Assembly (NCBI GenBank): GCA_023131225.1
Contig: JAGLZW010000001.1
Span: 1 to 64,000, forward strand
Length of the DNA: 64,000 nt
Direction: 5' to 3'
Origin: Candidatus Bathyarchaeota archaeon
GTDB taxonomy: Archaea > Thermoproteota > Bathyarchaeia > Bathyarchaeales > SOJC01
The notes under the pieces are model-generated. The model did no database searches. It was not told where the DNA came from and saw nothing but the letters and a program-made list of their open reading frames with translations. Numbering within the stretch: position 1 is the first letter of the stretch; the number at the start of each line of letters is the position of its first letter. Of this stretch, positions 546-45,222 are shown piece by piece. The translations under genes were made by a program, and so were the position numbers.

Positions 546-591
546 TCTGGAGATATCTCCCGAAATTACCCCGCAAACTCCCCATTTTTTT
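546..591 (+). repeat. Palindromic element copy A
   Basis: A perfect 12-bp palindrome GGAGATATCTCC (549-560) is followed by CCG, a short C-rich spacer and a T-run. The same arrangement recurs at 1790, 3056, 7199 and 9354. This copy lies between the divergent methyltransferase and the gene at 739. Its function is unknown. Confidence 0.6.
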
Positions 592-1785: not shown

Positions 1786-1830
1786 AAATGGAGATCTCCC
1801 GAATTTTTCCAGTAAGCCCTCTTTTTTATC
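1786..1830 (+). repeat. Palindromic element copy B
   Basis: GGAGATCTCC (1790-1799) followed by CGAA, a spacer and a T-run. This is a shortened version of copy A. A TATA-like CATATTTAAG lies about 30 bp to the left. The copy is in the convergent gap before the end of the DUF362 gene, where a terminator role would also fit. Confidence 0.5.
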
Positions 1831-1838
1831 TAACTGGA

Positions 1839-2900
1839 CTATTCTATCCAGTAAACCCATCCGTTTGAGACCTTGGATTTTTTCAAGACTCCTTTTTTCA
1901 CTCTTCGAGCAAGAGAACTAGCGATTTTGCCCTCCTTGCCTTTGGTCGAGAGCCCTTTAGCTTCTAATGCTTTGACCGCATCGTCTATTGTTCTTTTATT
2001 TGGTTGCTTGAAAAATCCCTCACGGATTAAACCTTCAAGTGCATGATACGCATGCCCACCCCAAGTTTGAGGCCCTCTGCGCTGTGCTAGTATCTTCTTT
2101 TGGGTCATTGCGGCGGATACGAATTTTTCTTTAAGGCGCTCAAAGGAAGCTCCTACGACCTTGATATTTCCAAGGTCTCCTTCTCCAAGACCCCTTTTCG
2201 CAAATTCTTGTATTACTGACATGTTCTGAGGATTAAGACCTGCAAGAGTGGCTCCAACTGTCTCTACAGCAACTGCGTCTCTCCCTACTAGCAGGGTATT
2301 CATTTGTACGGGAGCATTCCCTGCACCGCGCCAGAAGTATGTTCCGTCAAGCACGGCGAGATCTACTCCGCCTATTGCTTCATAAACATCGGCGAGGAGC
2401 GTGGGAAGAATCTTGTGATATTTTGCTTTCTTGGAAGTCGGAATGCATCCAAACAGGTTTTTAAGGATACTTCCTCTTTCAAAGGAACGCAGTATGTGTG
2501 TTCCAACCAAAATATTGGGTTTGAAAAGTATATGTGATAAATTCATTTCTTGATTCCCAAGCCTTACACTTCTAGTATCCGAGTCATCTGAGAGGTTGAA
2601 GGGAACGATTCGTTCTGTGAAGAGTTCTTTCCAGATTTGAAGCCTCTCTGTACCGGTGCCTTGATAGTTGTCAGATTCAGCTAGGAAAATCTTTGGAGCC
2701 TTATCAAAACGATTCGTAACGGCGTCAACCACGCTTACTGATGTATGGTTTCCTGCTTTGTGACTAAAAACTCCAACTTTGATAACAACAGATTTCTCAA
2801 CAGTATTTAGATCATCTATTCCCCCGATCATGTCGAGAACTTGTTTTAGCGACCCCGCTGGGTCTCCATCGAACTCGATTATAGCGACTTTTGAGGTCAA
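1839..2900 (-). CDS. DUF362 domain protein
   Basis: A 353-residue protein starting at TTG. The N-terminal two thirds match the DUF362 pattern seen in many archaeal iron-sulfur-associated proteins: VVIKVG near the start, then FLAESDNYQGTGT, KPNILVGTHI and a conserved VDLAVLDGTYFW, and finally LVGRDAVAVETVGA. There is no ferredoxin-type CxxCxxC cluster, so this is the version without a fused ferredoxin domain. The lysine-rich C-terminal 70 residues look like a small winged-helix-like tail. The biochemical role of DUF362 is not firmly established. The gene stands alone, convergent with the gene at 739. Confidence 0.75.
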   Translation of the reverse strand: MTSKVAIIEFDGDPAGSLKQVLDMIGGIDDLNTVEKSVVIKVGVFSHKAGNHTSVSVVDAVTNRFDKAPKIFLAESDNYQGTGTERLQIWKELFTERIVPFNLSDDSDTRSVRLGNQEMNLSHILFKPNILVGTHILRSFERGSILKNLFGCIPTSKKAKYHKILPTLLADVYEAIGGVDLAVLDGTYFWRGAGNAPVQMNTLLVGRDAVAVETVGATLAGLNPQNMSVIQEFAKRGLGEGDLGNIKVVGASFERLKEKFVSAAMTQKKILAQRRGPQTWGGHAYHALEGLIREGFFKQPNKRTIDDAVKALEAKGLSTKGKEGKIASSLARRVKKGVLKKSKVSNGWVYWIE

Positions 2901-3510
2901 CGCTCTGCCCTCGCTTATATGAAGAACAGTAGTTCACAAAACCCCTTGACAAAGAAAAGCGTTTCTATCTGAACCAATTATGCGCCAACAATACAAGAAT
3001 CCTCCATATGCATATGCAAAGTGGGCCGGGAGAGATTTGAACCCCCACCCATAGTGGAGACATCTACCGCAAATCCCCATTTTTTCTATGCAATAGTCTG
3101 AAACGCCAAGGTTTACACGAGAAGTCATAATTCAATTTTCAGCTTCTCTTTATAGCCAGTACACCGCCATTCTTTTTTTGGTCTTGCCCATTTGTAAAGA
3201 GCGTTGTTTTGCTTGCGGAGCTGATCGAAAAATCCTTTTTTAGGGAGTTTTCATAATGCGCACGCAGAAGGGTATTGTGAAAAACGTTGCGAGCAACATC
3301 CAGACGATAAAAAGGTTCATAGAAGAAAGTTCCAGAAATTATAAATACATCTTTGGCAGGAACATTCTCTCGGTATTGGAGAAACAATTTCCTGTAAATT
3401 ATTTTTTCATCTTCAAGCCTTGACAGAAGTCAGGGAAGCGAGAAACTGCTTAGCTCGAGATGTAGGGCTAAAAGTGGCCGCCGAGAAAGGAGAAGGCAGA
3501 GGAAGGATTA
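2901..3510. other. Gene-free stretch with repeat copy C
   Basis: This 610-bp gap between divergent genes holds the tRNA-3'-like repeat at 3021-3085. I see no convincing ORF, tRNA 5' half or promoter pair apart from a GGAAGG ribosome site (3501-3506) just before the TTG at 3511. Confidence 0.4.
3021..3085 (-). repeat. tRNA-3'-end-like sequence plus palindromic element (copy C)
   Basis: On the minus strand, 3046-3021 reads like a tRNA T-arm and acceptor end: GGGGG, loop TTCAAAT, CTCTC, then CCGGCCCA. The first 26 bases (3021-3046) are identical to 9321-9346. To the right is GGAGACATCTACCGC, a degenerate copy of the window's palindromic element, then a T-run. No D-arm or matching GGGCCGG 5' half is present within several hundred bases, so it is not an intact tRNA gene. 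Confidence 0.6.
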
Positions 3511-5793
3511 TTGGAAAGAATTGAGAAGTTAAGTCTTTTGATGCTGACGTTGATTCTAATGTTCTCGACGTTAGCAAATGCACCTACTGCTGTGGAAGCA
3601 GCATCACCAGAAAAAGGTCCGAGAACTGAAGATCTGGTTATCTACTACTATGGGAACGTGACGAGTGCATACGTAGCGTTGAAGGCTGGCGAAATCGACA
3701 TAATTGGCTATGAGCTCACACCAGATCTGTTTGAGGATGCGATTAACGACGTCAACATCGTGTTGGCACCAGTTGCTGATTCTGGGATGTACCAGTTTGA
3801 TATCAACAATAACTGCACGATTGCCACTTATCCTGGTATACGCTCGCCTACGAACTACCAGGGCTTCAGGCAAGCTTTAGCGTGGCTAACTGACAAAGAA
3901 TACGTTATAGAGGAAGCGTGTGAAGGTTTTGCTGAAAGGATTGATCAGCCTATTGCAGCTCCGTATAAAGGTTGGAGAAACGAGTCGATGTGGTATCCCA
4001 ACTATCCGTACGAGTATAACCCCGTCGCGGCGGCAGCCACTTTGGATGCAGAGGGATTCGTACAGGGCGAGACGCCAAACCCATACTACGATGCTGCTTT
4101 TCCAGGCTCAGCCGAGTACATAAGAATCTATCCTGCAGGCCACTCCAAGGCTGGACAGGACTTGGACGATTTGGAAGTTTGCGTGCGAACCGACGACACT
4201 CGTAGGCTTCAGGCTGGAAGGCTGACTTATCAAAACATGAGGAAACACGGTATCCCAGTGAACGCCCTCGAGGCTGACATGGCCGGTCTCTACGACAAAG
4301 TGATGGGCGCCTTTGACTACCACATGTACACCGGTGGCTGGAGTGTGGGAAGATTCCCACCAATAACTCTTCACGGTCTATACCACTCCGATTTCACGTA
4401 TTCCTACGGACCGAACTACGTGACGGGCAATGGCACTCATCCTTACCTCGACACGCTTCTTGATTTTTGTCGTTATCCCGCCTCATATAACGAGGCTATC
4501 AACTACACTAAAATCGCTGCAGGATACATGACAGAAATCTGTGTGAACATCCCGTTGTTCAGCGCAAAATCATTCTGGCCTTGGAACAAGAATCTAATAG
4601 GCGTCGTTAACATGGCAGGTTCTGGACCTGAAAACAGCTACACCTTCATGAACGCCTACAAAGCAGACGGATCAGCCATCAGATTTGGACTTAAAGGTGC
4701 ACCTGTAAGCATGAACATCATATACTCATACTGGTACTACGACTATCCGAACCTTGACGGGATGAACCTTTACGGCGGCATAGACGTCCCGCCATACGAC
4801 CTCTCGGCCGATCAGGCTGGCTGGCTTCTGGACTGGGAAACTGGCACGTGGATTGACCCTGACAACGGCGAAACCAAGACAAAGATCACAAAATACTTAA
4901 GAGGTGATGCCTACTTTGGAGAGCCCGTTACAGGCTACCGCAAAGCCAACGTTAACGCCAGCCACTTCTTCTTCAGCGCTTGGTACATATTTCAAGGCCC
5001 ATCACACTTCTGTAGTTCCACGTTCGACTCCCTTCATCACATTGACATTGTCGATACGCAACAGGTTGACATGTACTTCGACTTCTTAAGCTACTGGAAC
5101 ACTTACTATGCTATTGGACCCATGCTGCCAATGGACACGTGGATGCAGCAACCCACACTCGGAAGCCAGAGCACGGAAACTTTCGTTGAAGGAATCAACC
5201 TCACAACACCGGGGCCTGTCAATTTAAGCGGCAGGCCAGTGTGGATTAACTCGGTAACAGTGAACGGTACACATCTAAACATGTTCAGCGAGTACAACAT
5301 TGTTGGAGGAGTATGGATTCCGTGTGACTCAAAGGGTGAACTGGAAGTTTTCGTGAACTTGACAGCCAAGGCAATAGTTGTTGTAGACTACTGGCAATAT
5401 GGAGCTGGCTCCGGCTACACGCCCGGCAACTTGCCGTGGCAGACAATCTTCGAGGGTGCTGGAATGTACTATGCGATGGCGTTTACTCCGGGAATAGGTG
5501 GCAACTTAACGCTGAAGCGTAACCCTTACTACTGGATGGAGGCCCCGCCTTTAGGCGAGATCGACTTCGTCTGGAAGTGGGAGAGTGGGCCAAAGCCACG
5601 GAACGGCAGCCACAAGATCGACATTTACGACATTGTTATTGCAGCAGGAGCCTACGGCAGCCAAGGAACTGGTGTGCCAGATAGGAACTGGTTCCCAGGT
5701 GCTGACGTGGCTCCCAGCGGAGGCCAAGTAGACATCTACGACATCGTCACAATAGTCGGCAAATACGGTGAAGAATGGGGTCACACACCGTAG
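3511..5793 (+). CDS. Extracellular solute-binding protein family 5 with C-terminal dockerin-like repeats
   Basis: A 760-residue exported protein. The TTG start has GGAAGG upstream and is followed by a signal-peptide-like segment (residues 5-30). GPRTEDLVIYYYGNV and ALKAGEIDIIGYEL are typical of archaeal peptide/DppA-type binding proteins (SBP_bac_5), whose domain fills most of the chain. From about residue 698 there are two dockerin-like repeats, KIDIYDIVIAAGAYG and QVDIYDIVTIVGKYG. Both keep the DIYDIV helix, but their preceding loops (NGSH, APSGG) have lost most acidic calcium ligands. No permease or ATPase genes are adjacent, so a transporter partner, if any, is elsewhere. The dockerin tail suggests tethering to a cohesin-bearing surface scaffold rather than a free lipoprotein. 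Confidence 0.85.
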   Translation: MERIEKLSLLMLTLILMFSTLANAPTAVEAASPEKGPRTEDLVIYYYGNVTSAYVALKAGEIDIIGYELTPDLFEDAINDVNIVLAPVADSGMYQFDINNNCTIATYPGIRSPTNYQGFRQALAWLTDKEYVIEEACEGFAERIDQPIAAPYKGWRNESMWYPNYPYEYNPVAAAATLDAEGFVQGETPNPYYDAAFPGSAEYIRIYPAGHSKAGQDLDDLEVCVRTDDTRRLQAGRLTYQNMRKHGIPVNALEADMAGLYDKVMGAFDYHMYTGGWSVGRFPPITLHGLYHSDFTYSYGPNYVTGNGTHPYLDTLLDFCRYPASYNEAINYTKIAAGYMTEICVNIPLFSAKSFWPWNKNLIGVVNMAGSGPENSYTFMNAYKADGSAIRFGLKGAPVSMNIIYSYWYYDYPNLDGMNLYGGIDVPPYDLSADQAGWLLDWETGTWIDPDNGETKTKITKYLRGDAYFGEPVTGYRKANVNASHFFFSAWYIFQGPSHFCSSTFDSLHHIDIVDTQQVDMYFDFLSYWNTYYAIGPMLPMDTWMQQPTLGSQSTETFVEGINLTTPGPVNLSGRPVWINSVTVNGTHLNMFSEYNIVGGVWIPCDSKGELEVFVNLTAKAIVVVDYWQYGAGSGYTPGNLPWQTIFEGAGMYYAMAFTPGIGGNLTLKRNPYYWMEAPPLGEIDFVWKWESGPKPRNGSHKIDIYDIVIAAGAYGSQGTGVPDRNWFPGADVAPSGGQVDIYDIVTIVGKYGEEWGHTP

Positions 5794-6036
5794 ATTCATA
5801 AAGACATAGCACGCGCAAGACAATAGGTGCCGCGCTAGACTAGTTGCTAGCCTTCTCTTCTCCCCGTTTTAAGGTCATGCGTGCGCACGGACCAGCGCAA
5901 GCGGAAATAGCGTGGGGTGGTTACGGAAACGGACAAAAACATATGAAAACATTTATTTTCAACCTTTATGCTTCAGTTGCAACTATAACTACTACTCTTC
6001 TTCGTTAATATCAGTAACCTTGACATCCCAGTTGCG

Positions 6037-6542
6037 TCACATGAACCTGTTCAAAGCCCAATTACGGCCAACCTTCTTAGAAACACTCTCAGCCATATCC
6101 TTATCAAGAACCTTATTTATCCGGCGAGTCCGCCTGCTAAAATTATGAGACTTCAGAGCAGCACGTCTCCATAAAAGTTTCTGCAGCTTTTTAGGGCCCA
6201 ACCCATGAGGATAAATTTCACGCAAAGCCTGCATAATCATTAAGTCACGACTATCAGCACAGACGAGACCGATGAGATAGTTAGCGTCAAAATCCATAAT
6301 CCTATGCAAACCCAAACTCAACCCCCGCAACATACGCTCAATCTCTTGAAGCTCCCTTTATTCCTGTAAATTAACGTCTTAATCCACACATATCTGCCGT
6401 TTTTCTCCTCCTCAGAACGCTTTCGCGTACATTCTTTTGTACCTTTAATGGTTGCCAACGTAACGAAACCTCCACGGCATACATACTGAACATGGCAAAA
6501 TGAGTGCCCAGAACCTACCCCATTTAACCCTAAATATCGCAT
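6037..6542 (-). pseudogene. Possible frameshifted ORF of unknown family
   Basis: Two minus-strand frames overlap at 6318-6333 and read as one protein if a single frameshift is placed near 6350. The first part ends WIKTLIYRNKG and the second begins ELQEIERMLRGLSL. Together they give about 170 residues with a basic C-terminus (KSHNFSRRTRRINKVLDK). I do not recognise the family. It may be a decayed gene, or coincidental open frames. Confidence 0.3.
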
Positions 6543-6830
6543 ATCTCAAGACGCGCCGAGAAAACAGCTTAGAAACACGAAACGACTGAGAAATAGCCTT
6601 CCCTGAAACAATGGAAAAAACAGGTTCGGAACACTATTTCACTTTAGCCAAATTCTCCTTATTTCCCAGTTTTTTTCACTGCGACGTATATCCTCAATGT
6701 ATCTACTCCGCTTCAATTGAAAGTGCTTCCTATTGGTTTCTTTAAATCCGAAGACTCCACATGGTGCGCGTCATTGATGAGACTTTCACATTAAGCTTGG
6801 GAGACTTCCAAAAAGACAGAAGCGCACCGA

Positions 6831-6857
6831 CCCCCCCCCCTCCCCTCCCCCCTACCC
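6831..6857 (-). repeat. C-tract (G-run on minus strand)
   Basis: A run of ten C's, then TCCCCTCCCCCCTACCC, followed by eight or more T's. On the minus strand this gives four closely spaced G-runs, a G-quadruplex-capable pattern, in an intergenic region. Confidence 0.6.
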
Positions 6858-7194
6858 TTTTTTTTAGTCAATTAAGCCTTTACACCTGTGGCTGCACTCG
6901 CCTATTTGCATAGACTATGAAATGCCAGAAACTCCTATAGTCAATACCCAGAAACTCGGGGCGTCGTTTTAACGAGTTAATGGCCATTTACCATTAATTT
7001 TACTTATTCTATAGAAGTTATTACGTGAAAACCTTTTTATGGGCATCATCCGAATCGATCAATTTAACATTACCATTTCATTTTAGGGAGAGCTTCATTC
7101 TTGCAATGTTGTAAATTGTTACGGTCACTTAAACAGACAATTGGACAATTTGTTCAGTTATGTCATGCATGCACTTTTTAAATAAAGATTGCTG

Positions 7195-7228
7195 CAGTGG
7201 AGATGTCTCCCGCATCTTCCCTTTTTTT
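7195..7228 (+). repeat. Palindromic element copy D
   Basis: CAGTGGAGATGTCTCCCGC contains a near-perfect palindrome (7199-7210), followed by a short spacer and seven T's. A TATA-like TTTTTAAATAAAG lies about 15-25 bp to the left. It is about 80 bp upstream of the propeller-dockerin gene. Confidence 0.55.
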
Positions 7229-7308
7229 CAAAATTAAAAGAGGAAAAAATTCTCGACTGTAGTAATATATTTTAAAGTTAGTGCTGCTATTTCTTATAGG
7301 GATACCGG

Positions 7309-9066
7309 TTGAAGAAAAAGCTGTTTTGGCAATGGGTTGCTTTGCTGTTTTTGACGAGTGTGTTTTCGTCTGGATTCATCGTTATGGTTGTCGGAGCAGA
7401 CGGAGGTGAAGAAACAACACTCTGGCATAGATATTCAAAGGATGTGCAGTTAACTCACTTCCGCCCTTCCGGGTATTCGTTAAGTACACCCATAGAGTGG
7501 AACCAAACATACGGGGGAAACCAGTCCGATCACATTCGTTCGATTGAGCAGACTAGTGACGGAGGATATATAGCAGTTGGATTCACAAGATCTTTTGGCG
7601 CGAGTAACTGGGATTTTTGGCTGATCAAAACTGGGGGGTACGGCAACGTCGAGTGGAACAAAACATATGGAGGAGCCTCAACCGATGCGGGTAGGTCTGT
7701 CCAGCAGACTAGTGATGGAGGATACATAGCGGTTGGATTGACAATGTCTGACGATCTCTGGCTGGTTAAGACAGATGCTTATGGAAATATGGAATGGAAC
7801 AAAACGTACGGTGGCTCAGGGTATGACGATGGATATTCTGTTGAGCAGACCAGCGATGGAGGATACATAGTGGCTGGAGCCACGAGTTCTTACGGTGCAG
7901 GTAGTACTGATTATTGGTTGTTGAAGACTGATGTCTTTGGCGAGTTGGAGTGGAACAAAACTTATGGTGGTAATCAACCTGACGGGGCGCACGACGTTCA
8001 CCAAACCAGTGATGGAGGATACATCGTGGTTGGTAGAGCAGATTCTTTTAAGACAGGAATATTCGATGGTGAGATCTGGCTGGTTAAGACGGATGAGTAT
8101 GGTAACGTGTCGTGGGGTTGGCTGTCTGGCTGGCCCGACTGGGACTTCGCTGATTCTGTTGAGCAGACTAGTGACGGAGGATACATAGTGGCGGGTACGA
8201 GATTTTCTTCCTATGATACTAGATACGATTTTTGGCTGCTGAAGTTCTACCCCAACGGCACTCTGGATTGGAATAGCGTGTATGCTAGATCTGGAACATC
8301 TGAAGATGTTGCTAACAGCGTTCAGCAGACCAGTGATGGCGGGTACGTCGTTGCTGGTGGTTGGGGAGATTTTTGGCTCGTCAAAACTGACGGGGCTGGA
8401 AACGTAGAGTGGAACAAGTCCTATGGAGGAGCTGGATCGGAAACTGCGTATTCTGTGCAGCAAACCAGCGATGGAGGATACATCGCAGCCGGAGATACGA
8501 CCTCTTTTGGTTTGGGTCGCGATGGCTACCCGGATGGTTGGCTAGTTAAGATTTTCCCAGCTCACGACGTTGCCGTCAACAGCGCTGAGACTTCCAAAAC
8601 TGTGGTTGGACAAGGCTACCCTCTATCTATCAACGTGACAGTTGAGAACCCTGGCTTCTTCACCGAAGCCTTCAATGTCACAGTCTACGCCAACGCAACA
8701 GTCATAGGAACACAAACCGTGCAATACTTGAGTTCAAAGGCTTCAGCAACCCTAGTTTTCACGTGGAACACAACAGGCTTCGACAAAGGCAACTACACCA
8801 TAAGTGCATACGTCACCCCAGTTTCTAACGAAACAATCACAACGGATAATGCCCTTCTCGCCGACAGAGAGATTTGTGTTACTATCCCCGGCGATGTTGA
8901 CGCAGACCAAGATGTTGACATCTACGACATTGTTCAGTTGGCTGGAATCTACGGCACGACTGAAGAAGACCCAAAATACAATCCTAATTGTGATATTGAC
9001 GGCGACGGAGATATAGACATCTACGACATAGTAGCCGCAGCCGGCTACTACGGAGAAAGCTGGTAG
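7309..9066 (+). CDS. Exported seven-repeat beta-propeller protein with CARDB and dockerin domains
   Basis: A 585-residue protein with a TTG start and a hydrophobic signal segment at residues 8-29. Residues about 63-418 hold seven tandem repeats of roughly 45-55 residues, built on WNKTYGG, QTSDGGYI, a GxTxS segment and DxWLVKTD. This is consistent with a seven-bladed propeller. Residues about 419-525 form a CARDB/Ig-like domain (HDVAVNSAETSK onward). Residues 528-585 are a dockerin with two calcium-loop repeats, DVDADQDVDIYD and DIDGDGDIDIYD, each followed by a YG-ending helix. The repeats are also similar at DNA level (CAGACTAGTGATGGAGG recurs). A TATA-like box lies at 7265-7274. It probably sits on the cell surface, attached through a cohesin; no cohesin gene is seen in the window. 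Its ligand or substrate is unknown. Confidence 0.8.
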   Translation: MKKKLFWQWVALLFLTSVFSSGFIVMVVGADGGEETTLWHRYSKDVQLTHFRPSGYSLSTPIEWNQTYGGNQSDHIRSIEQTSDGGYIAVGFTRSFGASNWDFWLIKTGGYGNVEWNKTYGGASTDAGRSVQQTSDGGYIAVGLTMSDDLWLVKTDAYGNMEWNKTYGGSGYDDGYSVEQTSDGGYIVAGATSSYGAGSTDYWLLKTDVFGELEWNKTYGGNQPDGAHDVHQTSDGGYIVVGRADSFKTGIFDGEIWLVKTDEYGNVSWGWLSGWPDWDFADSVEQTSDGGYIVAGTRFSSYDTRYDFWLLKFYPNGTLDWNSVYARSGTSEDVANSVQQTSDGGYVVAGGWGDFWLVKTDGAGNVEWNKSYGGAGSETAYSVQQTSDGGYIAAGDTTSFGLGRDGYPDGWLVKIFPAHDVAVNSAETSKTVVGQGYPLSINVTVENPGFFTEAFNVTVYANATVIGTQTVQYLSSKASATLVFTWNTTGFDKGNYTISAYVTPVSNETITTDNALLADREICVTIPGDVDADQDVDIYDIVQLAGIYGTTEEDPKYNPNCDIDGDGDIDIYDIVAAAGYYGESW

Positions 9067-9320
9067 CCCGATCTTTCTCTGTTTTTGTGTTGATTTCCGC
9101 GACGTACTTTATGCTTATTATCCATCTGGAACAATCGTTGCACGCGGTAAACAAGTGACGCTGAGCTATGTACACTCAGAAGCCTTGAGCCAAGTTCTCG
9201 CTGCAAGGCTAGGCTTCAAAACTCTAACGCCAAAGCGAAAGCTTAGAGGGGAGGAGGGGGTCTAGGTGTTTCCTCGCAAGGAGTATATGCGCGAACAGAA
9301 ACTGTTATACCATAGAATTG

Positions 9321-9383
9321 GTGGGCCGGGAGAGATTTGAACCCCCCCCCAGTAGAGATATCACCCGCGGCTTCCTTTTATTT
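9321..9383 (-). repeat. tRNA-3'-end-like sequence plus palindromic element (copy E)
   Basis: The first 26 bases (9321-9346) are identical to 3021-3046 and in the same orientation. On the minus strand they read as a T-arm and acceptor end (TTCAAAT loop, CCGGCCCA terminus). An unusual nine-C run (9342-9350) separates this from AGTAGAGATATCACCCGC, a degenerate palindromic element. With copy C it brackets the two dockerin genes. No tRNA 5' half is nearby. Confidence 0.6.
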
Positions 9384-9869: not shown

Positions 9870-9962
9870 GAAAGTGCCGAAGGGTCAGATTTTAAATGTA
9901 TTCCAAGGGAATACCACCTTTAAATAAAAGATTACTACCTTAAACACTCTTCGTGAAGCAAA

Positions 9963-10565
9963 ATGCTAACGCGCTTAAAGAAACGAGTTCAATCCCTGCT
10001 CGCAACAACGGCAAGACTACTACATAATCTAGGTGTGACGCCGAACCAAATCAGTGCAATGGGAATTTTGTTGGCTTTTCTATCCGGGTGTTCTTACTGG
10101 GCGTGGCAGCATAACCGTCTTCTTCTCATAGTCGCACCAATTCTTTTTCTACTATCTGGACTCTGCGATGCTCTGGACGGAGTTGTCGCAAGACTTCACA
10201 GTGAAACCACGGCTTTCGGCGGTTTTCTGGATTCTTTGCTCGACCGCTACGCCGATTCATTTATTCTCGTTGCAATGATAATCAGCGGTCTATGTGAAGT
10301 TTCTTGGGGTTCCATTGCGCTTGTCGGCTCTTTACTAGTAAGCTACGTACGCGCAAGGGCGGAGGCTGCTGGAGTCAAAATGGAGACCGTTGGTTTAACG
10401 GAGCGCGCTGAACGAATACTTGTATTGACACTGGCTAGTTTTGCTGCTTTCTTCTGGCTGGGCGCACTTTATTGGAGCGTAGGAATCCTTGCGGTGTTAA
10501 CAAATCTTACCGTGCTTCAACGCACAATCTACTTCTACAATAAATCCAAGCAAAAAGAAAGTTAG
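9963..10565 (+). CDS. CDP-alcohol phosphatidyltransferase, probable archaetidylinositol phosphate synthase
   Basis: A 200-residue integral membrane enzyme. The CDP-alcohol phosphotransferase signature D-x2-DG-x2-AR-x8-G-x3-D-x3-D is complete: DALDGVVAR, then GGFLDSLLDRYAD. It is followed by several hydrophobic segments. Archaeal members of this size and signature usually join CDP-archaeol to inositol phosphate in polar-lipid synthesis; the exact alcohol is inferred from family knowledge. The last codons overlap the convergent S26e gene by four bases. Confidence 0.8.
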   Translation: MLTRLKKRVQSLLATTARLLHNLGVTPNQISAMGILLAFLSGCSYWAWQHNRLLLIVAPILFLLSGLCDALDGVVARLHSETTAFGGFLDSLLDRYADSFILVAMIISGLCEVSWGSIALVGSLLVSYVRARAEAAGVKMETVGLTERAERILVLTLASFAAFFWLGALYWSVGILAVLTNLTVLQRTIYFYNKSKQKES

Positions 10566-44747: not shown

Positions 44748-45222
44748 AGATGTCGACTACTCAATGCAGTTTTGGAGTATTAGAAGGTTATGGGATTTAA
44801 GTATTGGTTTTCTATTAGCGGTATTCGAGTTCAGAATCTGACCTGCTGAATGTCTAACGGCGCTCTTTCAATATTATTTTGCGTGTCTCCAATATTTCCA
44901 CAGATTAAGATTCTCTAAAATTCAACAACTCCAGCTTTCTTGACCCTTTCACATCATAGAATCACTAGATATTTCTTAGAAAACTTCTAGAGATATCTCT
45001 CAATTCTCTCTAGTTTTTCGTCAATAGACTCATGGACAAACCGAGCGGTGATAACCATCTTTCTAATTATCCCATCTTTCCTCACTTGCAAAGGCTCGGA
45101 GTCGTTCAGATTAATCATTTATGAATTGTTGAAAGTCTGAATCTGATTTTGACTATGCCATCTTTTTTGCATGAAAGCTAAATTATTAAGGTTGAACTGT
45201 GTTTCCAGTTGTTGGAAGGCCT
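44748..45222. other. Intergenic stretch with one short ORF
   Basis: Contains only the small ORF at 44987-45118 and a TATA-like AAATTATTAAGG (45180-45191) before the MBL-fold gene. No RNA gene recognised. Confidence 0.35.
44987..45118 (-). CDS. Short hypothetical ORF
   Basis: 43 residues from ATG, coding-like composition: INLNDSEPLQVRKDGIIRK then VHESIDEKLERIERYL. No family recognised. It could be a small protein, a gene fragment or chance. Confidence 0.3.
   Translation of the reverse strand: MINLNDSEPLQVRKDGIIRKMVITARFVHESIDEKLERIERYL

Follow-up and report, generated by a model that had tools for sequence, protein, structure and literature searches.

Shuffling of gene cassettes at a dedicated site is a well-known means of rapid gene exchange in integron-bearing bacteria. 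Integrons and CALINs, archaeal ones included (PMC9668308), share several properties with the Bathyarchaeia locus described here: small gene units, a single type of short, uniformly oriented site, spacing of less than 4 kb, gain and loss of units, gene-less mini-units of 80 to 108 bp and arrays without an adjacent recombinase gene. They differ in that the Bathyarchaeia site lacks the R''/R' boxes of attC and no integron integrase was recovered over the cut-off; here, genes face both ways, each genome contains many small arrays and some units lie in tRNA genes. Archaeal integrons use canonical attC sites, and Bathyarchaeota are unmentioned in the main text of that study (PMC9668308).

Archaeal tRNA-targeted integrative elements (PMC8371274) likewise insert at the T-loop and 3' end of a tRNA gene, produce a direct repeat and restore the tRNA (tRNA-Ile here), but the units described below are 1 to 7 kb long, carry one or two genes without an integrase, and most of their junctions are between units and not between a unit and a tRNA gene. 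Tycheposons are, in the sections of PMC10872708 drawn on here, also cargo islands linked to tRNA genes and tyrosine recombinases; those sections give a size of 4 to 200 kb with a recombinase gene and describe no dispersed dedicated site in same-strand arrays. The pdif/dif modules of Acinetobacter (PMC6449649) are shuffled at short sites by a recombinase in trans, much as is proposed below, whereas their sites are inverted around a 6-bp centre and the present ones are direct repeats with a dyad centre of 2 bp. REP/BIME sequences with RAYT (PMC2817692, to the extent of the sections consulted) are also short intergenic palindromes in many copies. Unlike them, the sites here do not alternate in orientation, no HUH enzyme was found in the window genome or its sister, and the intervening DNA moves in whole units.

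Sites and cargo of the window

The window is a stretch of 64,000 nucleotides from a Candidatus Bathyarchaeota archaeon. Below, G000 denotes the genome of the window, G001 the sister species, C a contig and L a compared stretch. An initial annotation of the window reported identical same-orientation 26-mers at 3021-3046 and 9321-9346, resembling a T-arm and acceptor end on the minus strand, and suggested that the DNA between them could be an old integrative island or a hitch-hiked cassette. The repeats are as described: they are identical and equally oriented (expected number in shuffled sequence, 0), and 30 of 31 nt agree when the pair is extended. On the minus strand each is identical over 22-25 nt to the T-loop and acceptor 3' end of tRNA-Ile(GAT). 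The intact gene, which the annotation had proposed to look for, was located at C19:6413-6488, on a separate contig of the same genome. The direct repeat is therefore a tRNA 3' end, as in tRNA-targeted elements. ARAGORN found no tRNA gene in the window, including at either end of the block bounded by the 26-mers. Split tRNA halves were rejected as an explanation, since what lies upstream does not form an anticodon arm and an intact copy of the tRNA exists elsewhere.

The palindrome noted beside each 26-mer is present (GGAGACATCTACC, AGAGATATCACCC) but imperfect; it makes up the right half of a larger conserved site, which has an A-tract and GGGG...TTGCGG further out. On the minus strand this site of 36-44 nt (AAAAAATGGGGAGTTTGCGGGAGATATCTCCACTG) precedes each 26-mer. 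Its consensus is AAAAAA-GGGG-TTTGCGGGAGAYRTCTCCACTG, in the order A-tract, GGGG, TTGCGG and then the dyad CGGGAGAYRTCTCC, whose centre is 2 bp; some copies have extra bases inserted between TTGCGG and CGGGAGA. Copies in the genomes were counted with two sequence-only models; the R1 and R2 scores given below for the window are from cmsearch.

Five sites (one decayed) lie in the window, all between 0.5 and 9.4 kb, all on the minus strand and with one or two genes between neighbours. Exactly four were reported by cmsearch in the window, all minus, and the fifth, at approximately 1791-1827, was recognised by comparison with a DUF362 cassette of the sister. Three of the five (548-590, the decayed one and 7195-7228, minus strand) had been missed previously. 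The 26-mers accordingly do not bound one element: they belong to two members of an array of five sites, all on one strand, that reaches beyond 3.0-9.4 kb. The features are listed below.

548-590, minus strand: long-form site (A-tract, GGGG, TTTGCGG, spacer, CGGGAGATATCTCC); R1 22 bits, R2 17.7 bits
739-1599, plus strand: cargo between sites 548 and 1791, 286-aa protein, relative of a virus family (phrog_30874, E 1.8e-15)
1791-1827, minus strand: decayed long-form site, aligned to L116:14183 at the end of the sister DUF362 cassette; not reported by cmsearch
1839-2900, minus strand: cargo, DUF362 protein (PF04015)
3021-3046, minus strand: 26-mer, T-loop and acceptor 3' end of tRNA-Ile(GAT), tail behind the site (shuffles and tRNA match)
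3052-3085, minus strand: site core before the tRNA-Ile tail; R1 34.3 bits, R2 67 bits over 3021-3085
3511-5793, plus strand: cargo, 760-aa family-5 solute-binding protein (PF00496, E 9e-20) with a dockerin-like C-terminus (DIYDIV repeats)
6037-6333, minus strand: cargo, 98-aa protein with a counterpart on a Bathyarchaeota tailed-virus contig (L218:8826-9116, 44% identity, E 6e-24)
7195-7228, minus strand: site core, tail without a tRNA end; R1 33.7 bits
7309-9066, plus strand: cargo, 585-aa secreted dockerin protein (PF00404, Dockerin_1, and PF07705 above cut-off)
9321-9346, minus strand: second copy of the 26-mer, tRNA-Ile 3' end (tRNA match)
9350-9383, minus strand: diverged site core; R1 25.6 bits, R2 58.6 bits over 9321-9383
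9918-10565, plus strand: CDP-alcohol phosphatidyltransferase; synteny is conserved from 9918 onwards (97% identity with the sister), and the variable region has its right border here

Secreted dockerin-type proteins and adhesion proteins make up most of the cargo, which also includes virus-related genes. Both proteins annotated as dockerins between the repeats are of dockerin type, the formal PF00404 match being confined to the 585-aa protein. The remaining ORFs there are small or decayed and include no housekeeping gene, and no integrase ORF was found in window positions 1-16 kb, all in agreement with the initial annotation. A weak match to the palindromic core at 44985-45020 (minus strand; 17 bits, ad hoc matrix) is probably due to chance.

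Distribution and arrangement of the site

A whole-genome search with 76 nt around position 3021 returned many further loci, which matched the sequence before the tRNA part and not the tRNA part itself. Approximately 50 copies were counted in G000 and 55 in the sister. Within the family all 13 genomes had the site, as did 38 of 61 in the order, and an exact-pattern scan of one genome per species (84,980 species) returned 18 stretches, from Bathyarchaeota only. The tails behind the site vary between tRNA 3' ends (Ile exact, Phe 27/28, and less close Arg-, Ser- and Ala-like ends) and about 10 other recurring tails; a T-arm is present in approximately one third of copies. Scattered copies unrelated to tRNA genes had been named in advance as evidence against an integrative origin. 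This applies in part: the site is scattered, about 50 times in the genome and with differing tRNA ends or none, which suggests a cassette system and not chance.

Site copies are intergenic, and the flanking genes show no consistent orientation. An upstream regulatory element of dockerin genes was rejected, as the flanking genes are of every kind and every orientation. A coding peptide was also rejected: KNGELREMSPLLT can be read in frame in some copies, and by eye the frame is not kept across copies. A non-exhaustive literature search returned no account of the site.

Neighbouring sites less than 4 kb apart were on the same strand in 47 of 49 cases (P 2e-12; some loci were counted more than once). 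Intervals between sites ranged from 80 bp to 4.1 kb, with a median of 1.3 kb. Arrays of the integron/CALIN kind, with two or more same-orientation sites less than 4 kb apart and gene units between them, were thus present; the genes beside the sites run in both orientations, in the window as elsewhere, and not in the single orientation of integrons. The attC boxes R'' (RYYYAAC) and R' (GTTRRRY) were found in 1 of 82 copies, a frequency equal to that in random DNA, and no integron integrase (TIGR02249) exceeded the cut-off in any of 12 genomes. Identity of the system with attC and IntI was rejected on both counts. Gene-less mini-units of approximately 80-108 bp between two sites were seen at L094:14967-15079 and L126:783-921.

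Movement of units and insertion at tRNA-Ile

Synteny between the two sister genomes was compared at loci totalling approximately 700 kb, some pairs being non-independent. Among 47 breakpoints, 20 were 50 bp or less from a site, against approximately 12% expected from an intergenic-only null (P 2e-7). At L101/L129, contig C25 reads flank, site, flank, and the sister reads flank, site, 2.9 kb, site, flank; the additional unit contains two large ORFs, one of them for a glycoside phosphorylase. At L078/L099, two sites surround a 2-kb unit in C20 and the sister has one site. Units are thus gained or lost precisely at sites at both loci, as in integrons and CALINs. Inspection by eye of these two clean junctions revealed no terminal inverted repeats or target duplication.

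Units also occupy different loci in the sister genomes. Window positions 1824-2980 are 89% identical to L116:13034-14186, which lies at another locus of the sister, beside a site. The recombinant junction L104:3457 comprises the left of L116:6689 and the right of L116:14183, with the switch at GGTTCAAATC. Other recombinant junctions switch within the dyad; taken together, the switches lie either there or in the T-loop sequence TTCAAATC. Many sites in G000 are within approximately 1.4 kb of contig ends (C16, C24, C25, C35, C36, C37 and C41), perhaps because strains in the sample differed at sites and this broke the assembly. As the assemblies are metagenomic and sites lie near contig ends, some junctions could be effects of assembly or strain mixture, and as many sites are decayed the activity may be old.

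At the window locus, G009 and G004 have the ProRS, DUF424 and CDP-alcohol transferase genes side by side, and in G006 and G010 ProRS adjoins the transferase. The window block is absent from these four other genera, where the locus is closed up, and this adjacency identifies the block as inserted DNA. The empty site predicted for an integrative island was thereby found in relatives. In G000 at least 9.9 kb is inserted, the left side being a contig break; ProRS-DUF424-site stands at the end of contig C41. The sister carries a 0.83-kb dockerin-type cassette between two sites and a proteasome-like gene. The latter, a proteasome-alpha-like gene (L163:12526-13332, G001 C4) flanked by the last site and the CDP-alcohol transferase, was seen in the sister only.

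An insert of approximately 6.7 kb with a single gene, bounded by 23 bp, was found at the tRNA-Ile gene of C19 and is absent from the sister, where the site is empty. The DNA that directly follows tRNA-Ile in the sister is found in G000 6.74 kb further downstream, after a displaced tRNA-Ile 3' end. The comparison of filled and empty tRNA-Ile identifies tRNA 3' ends as true insertion points in this genome. The proposal of an old integrative island holds in that the window block is inserted DNA and tRNA-Ile a real insertion site, and fails in that the 26-mers are not the ends of one element. The single protein encoded by the C19 insert is 2147 aa long and has TSP3 repeats and a signal-like N-terminus. 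The insert contains no integrase, and units therefore need not carry their own enzyme. An intact tRNA at one border was found for this insert and not for the window block. The displaced tRNA-Ile end is preceded by the A-tract and GGGG of the core, the rest of which is missing, and on this ground it is placed with the site family. Approximately 300 bp at window positions ~9020-9320, following the tRNA-Ile tail of site 9321, have an 84% identical copy behind a second tRNA-Ile-like tail at C19:23477.

Recombinases and interpretation

The direct orientation of the sites, the gain, loss and translocation of units, and insertion at the T-loop and 3' end of tRNA genes argue for conservative site-specific recombination. 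The 0.5-9.4 kb region is probably an array of small gene cassettes recombined in this way, integron-like in behaviour and without IntI or attC. Cassettes would be excised by a putative tyrosine recombinase acting in trans, probably as circles, and could insert beside an existing site or in the T-loop/3' end of a tRNA gene. Insertion would restore the tRNA, and some cassettes would begin with a tRNA 3' end left by it; two units derived from tRNA-Ile would start in this way, with the window 26-mers.

A tyrosine recombinase is favoured because the alternatives are lacking or almost so: resolvase-type serine recombinases (PF00239) were found in 0 of 11 genomes, which led to rejection of a serine system, and Y1/HUH transposases (PF01797) in 1 of 11, which was neither G000 nor G001, so that an HUH/REP system was likewise rejected. 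Tyrosine recombinases occur in 6 of 6 genomes searched, but none could be tied to the site and no integrase was consistently linked to it. TTCAAAT with inverted arms is compatible with a 7-bp tyrosine-recombinase overlap, judged by general overlap features (PMC8371274). Sites lie near some integrase fragments (C37, C44 and G004:302528). That they are the att of intact integrases of the largest group was rejected, since several such integrases overlap their own tRNA sequence. The tyrosine integrases L265:7881-8894 (G000 C8) and L269 (G001 C27) overlap antisense tRNA-like sequence, resembling tRNA-Pro split by an intron, at their 5' ends, and are similar in this to suicidal integrases targeting tRNA 5' halves. 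The intact integrase L114:3537-4910 (G001 C31) begins 50 bp behind tRNA-Ser(GCT) and likely belongs to an ordinary integrated element.

Intergenic palindromic repeats in about 50 copies could also be a passive REP/MITE-like interspersed repeat spread by transposition, with host homologous recombination between direct copies moving or deleting DNA and cassettes as a by-product. Homologous deletion would likewise leave the difference between one site and two. This reading is considered unlikely: a same-strand arrangement of 47 out of 49 neighbours is not what random insertion would produce, neither G000 nor G001 has a REP-type Y1/HUH transposase, the orientation of REPs within BIMEs alternates (abstract of PMC2817692), and junctions share only ~13-36 bp of identity, the tRNA-Ile unit being bounded by 23 bp. 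Breakpoints at sites are also unlikely simply to mark gene boundaries, as they would for an RNA or transcription element such as a terminator or structured 3' UTR with its T-run on the other strand. The intergenic position, the stable dyad, the opposite-strand T-run and the T-arm in about one third of copies suit such an element. It is nevertheless the least probable reading, given flanking genes without consistent orientation, no Rfam match in the window, breakpoint enrichment that persists against the intergenic null and the occurrence of identical flanks with different partners on the other side of the site.

One integrative element or provirus, now degraded, that had arrived by recombination at a tRNA-Ile 3' end, with the 26-mers as its two att sites, would account for the exact tRNA-Ile 3' ends on both sides, for virus-related ORFs within and beside the block and for the empty locus in other genera. 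It is very improbable in view of three further sites inside and outside the pair, a DUF362 unit just outside it that moves independently, and the lack of an integrase and of a tRNA gene at either end.

Beyond the cassette array itself, Bathyarchaeia may possess a cassette system of their own that is independent of integrons, with a lineage-specific site, many small arrays per genome, dockerin-type secreted cargo, new arrays started in tRNA genes and an archaeal tyrosine recombinase in trans. This is advanced tentatively, at slightly less than even chance; that no description of the site was found and that the integron tests failed give a separate system a real chance. A second, unrelated-looking system in widespread sediment archaea would, if true, explain the swapping of secreted polymer-binding and adhesion proteins. 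It would also link integron-like arrays with ordinary tRNA integration, a connection drawn because similar units were found at a tRNA gene and in arrays.

Scans of virus contigs for the site gave one convincing Bathyarchaeota virus, L218 (IMGVR_UViG_3300031862_000447), a 12.3-kb contig with a major head protein and a terminase-like match. Its site is at the extreme contig end (12258-12277), and it also encodes the relative of window ORF 6037-6333. Bathyarchaeota viruses may carry, or end at, such sites.
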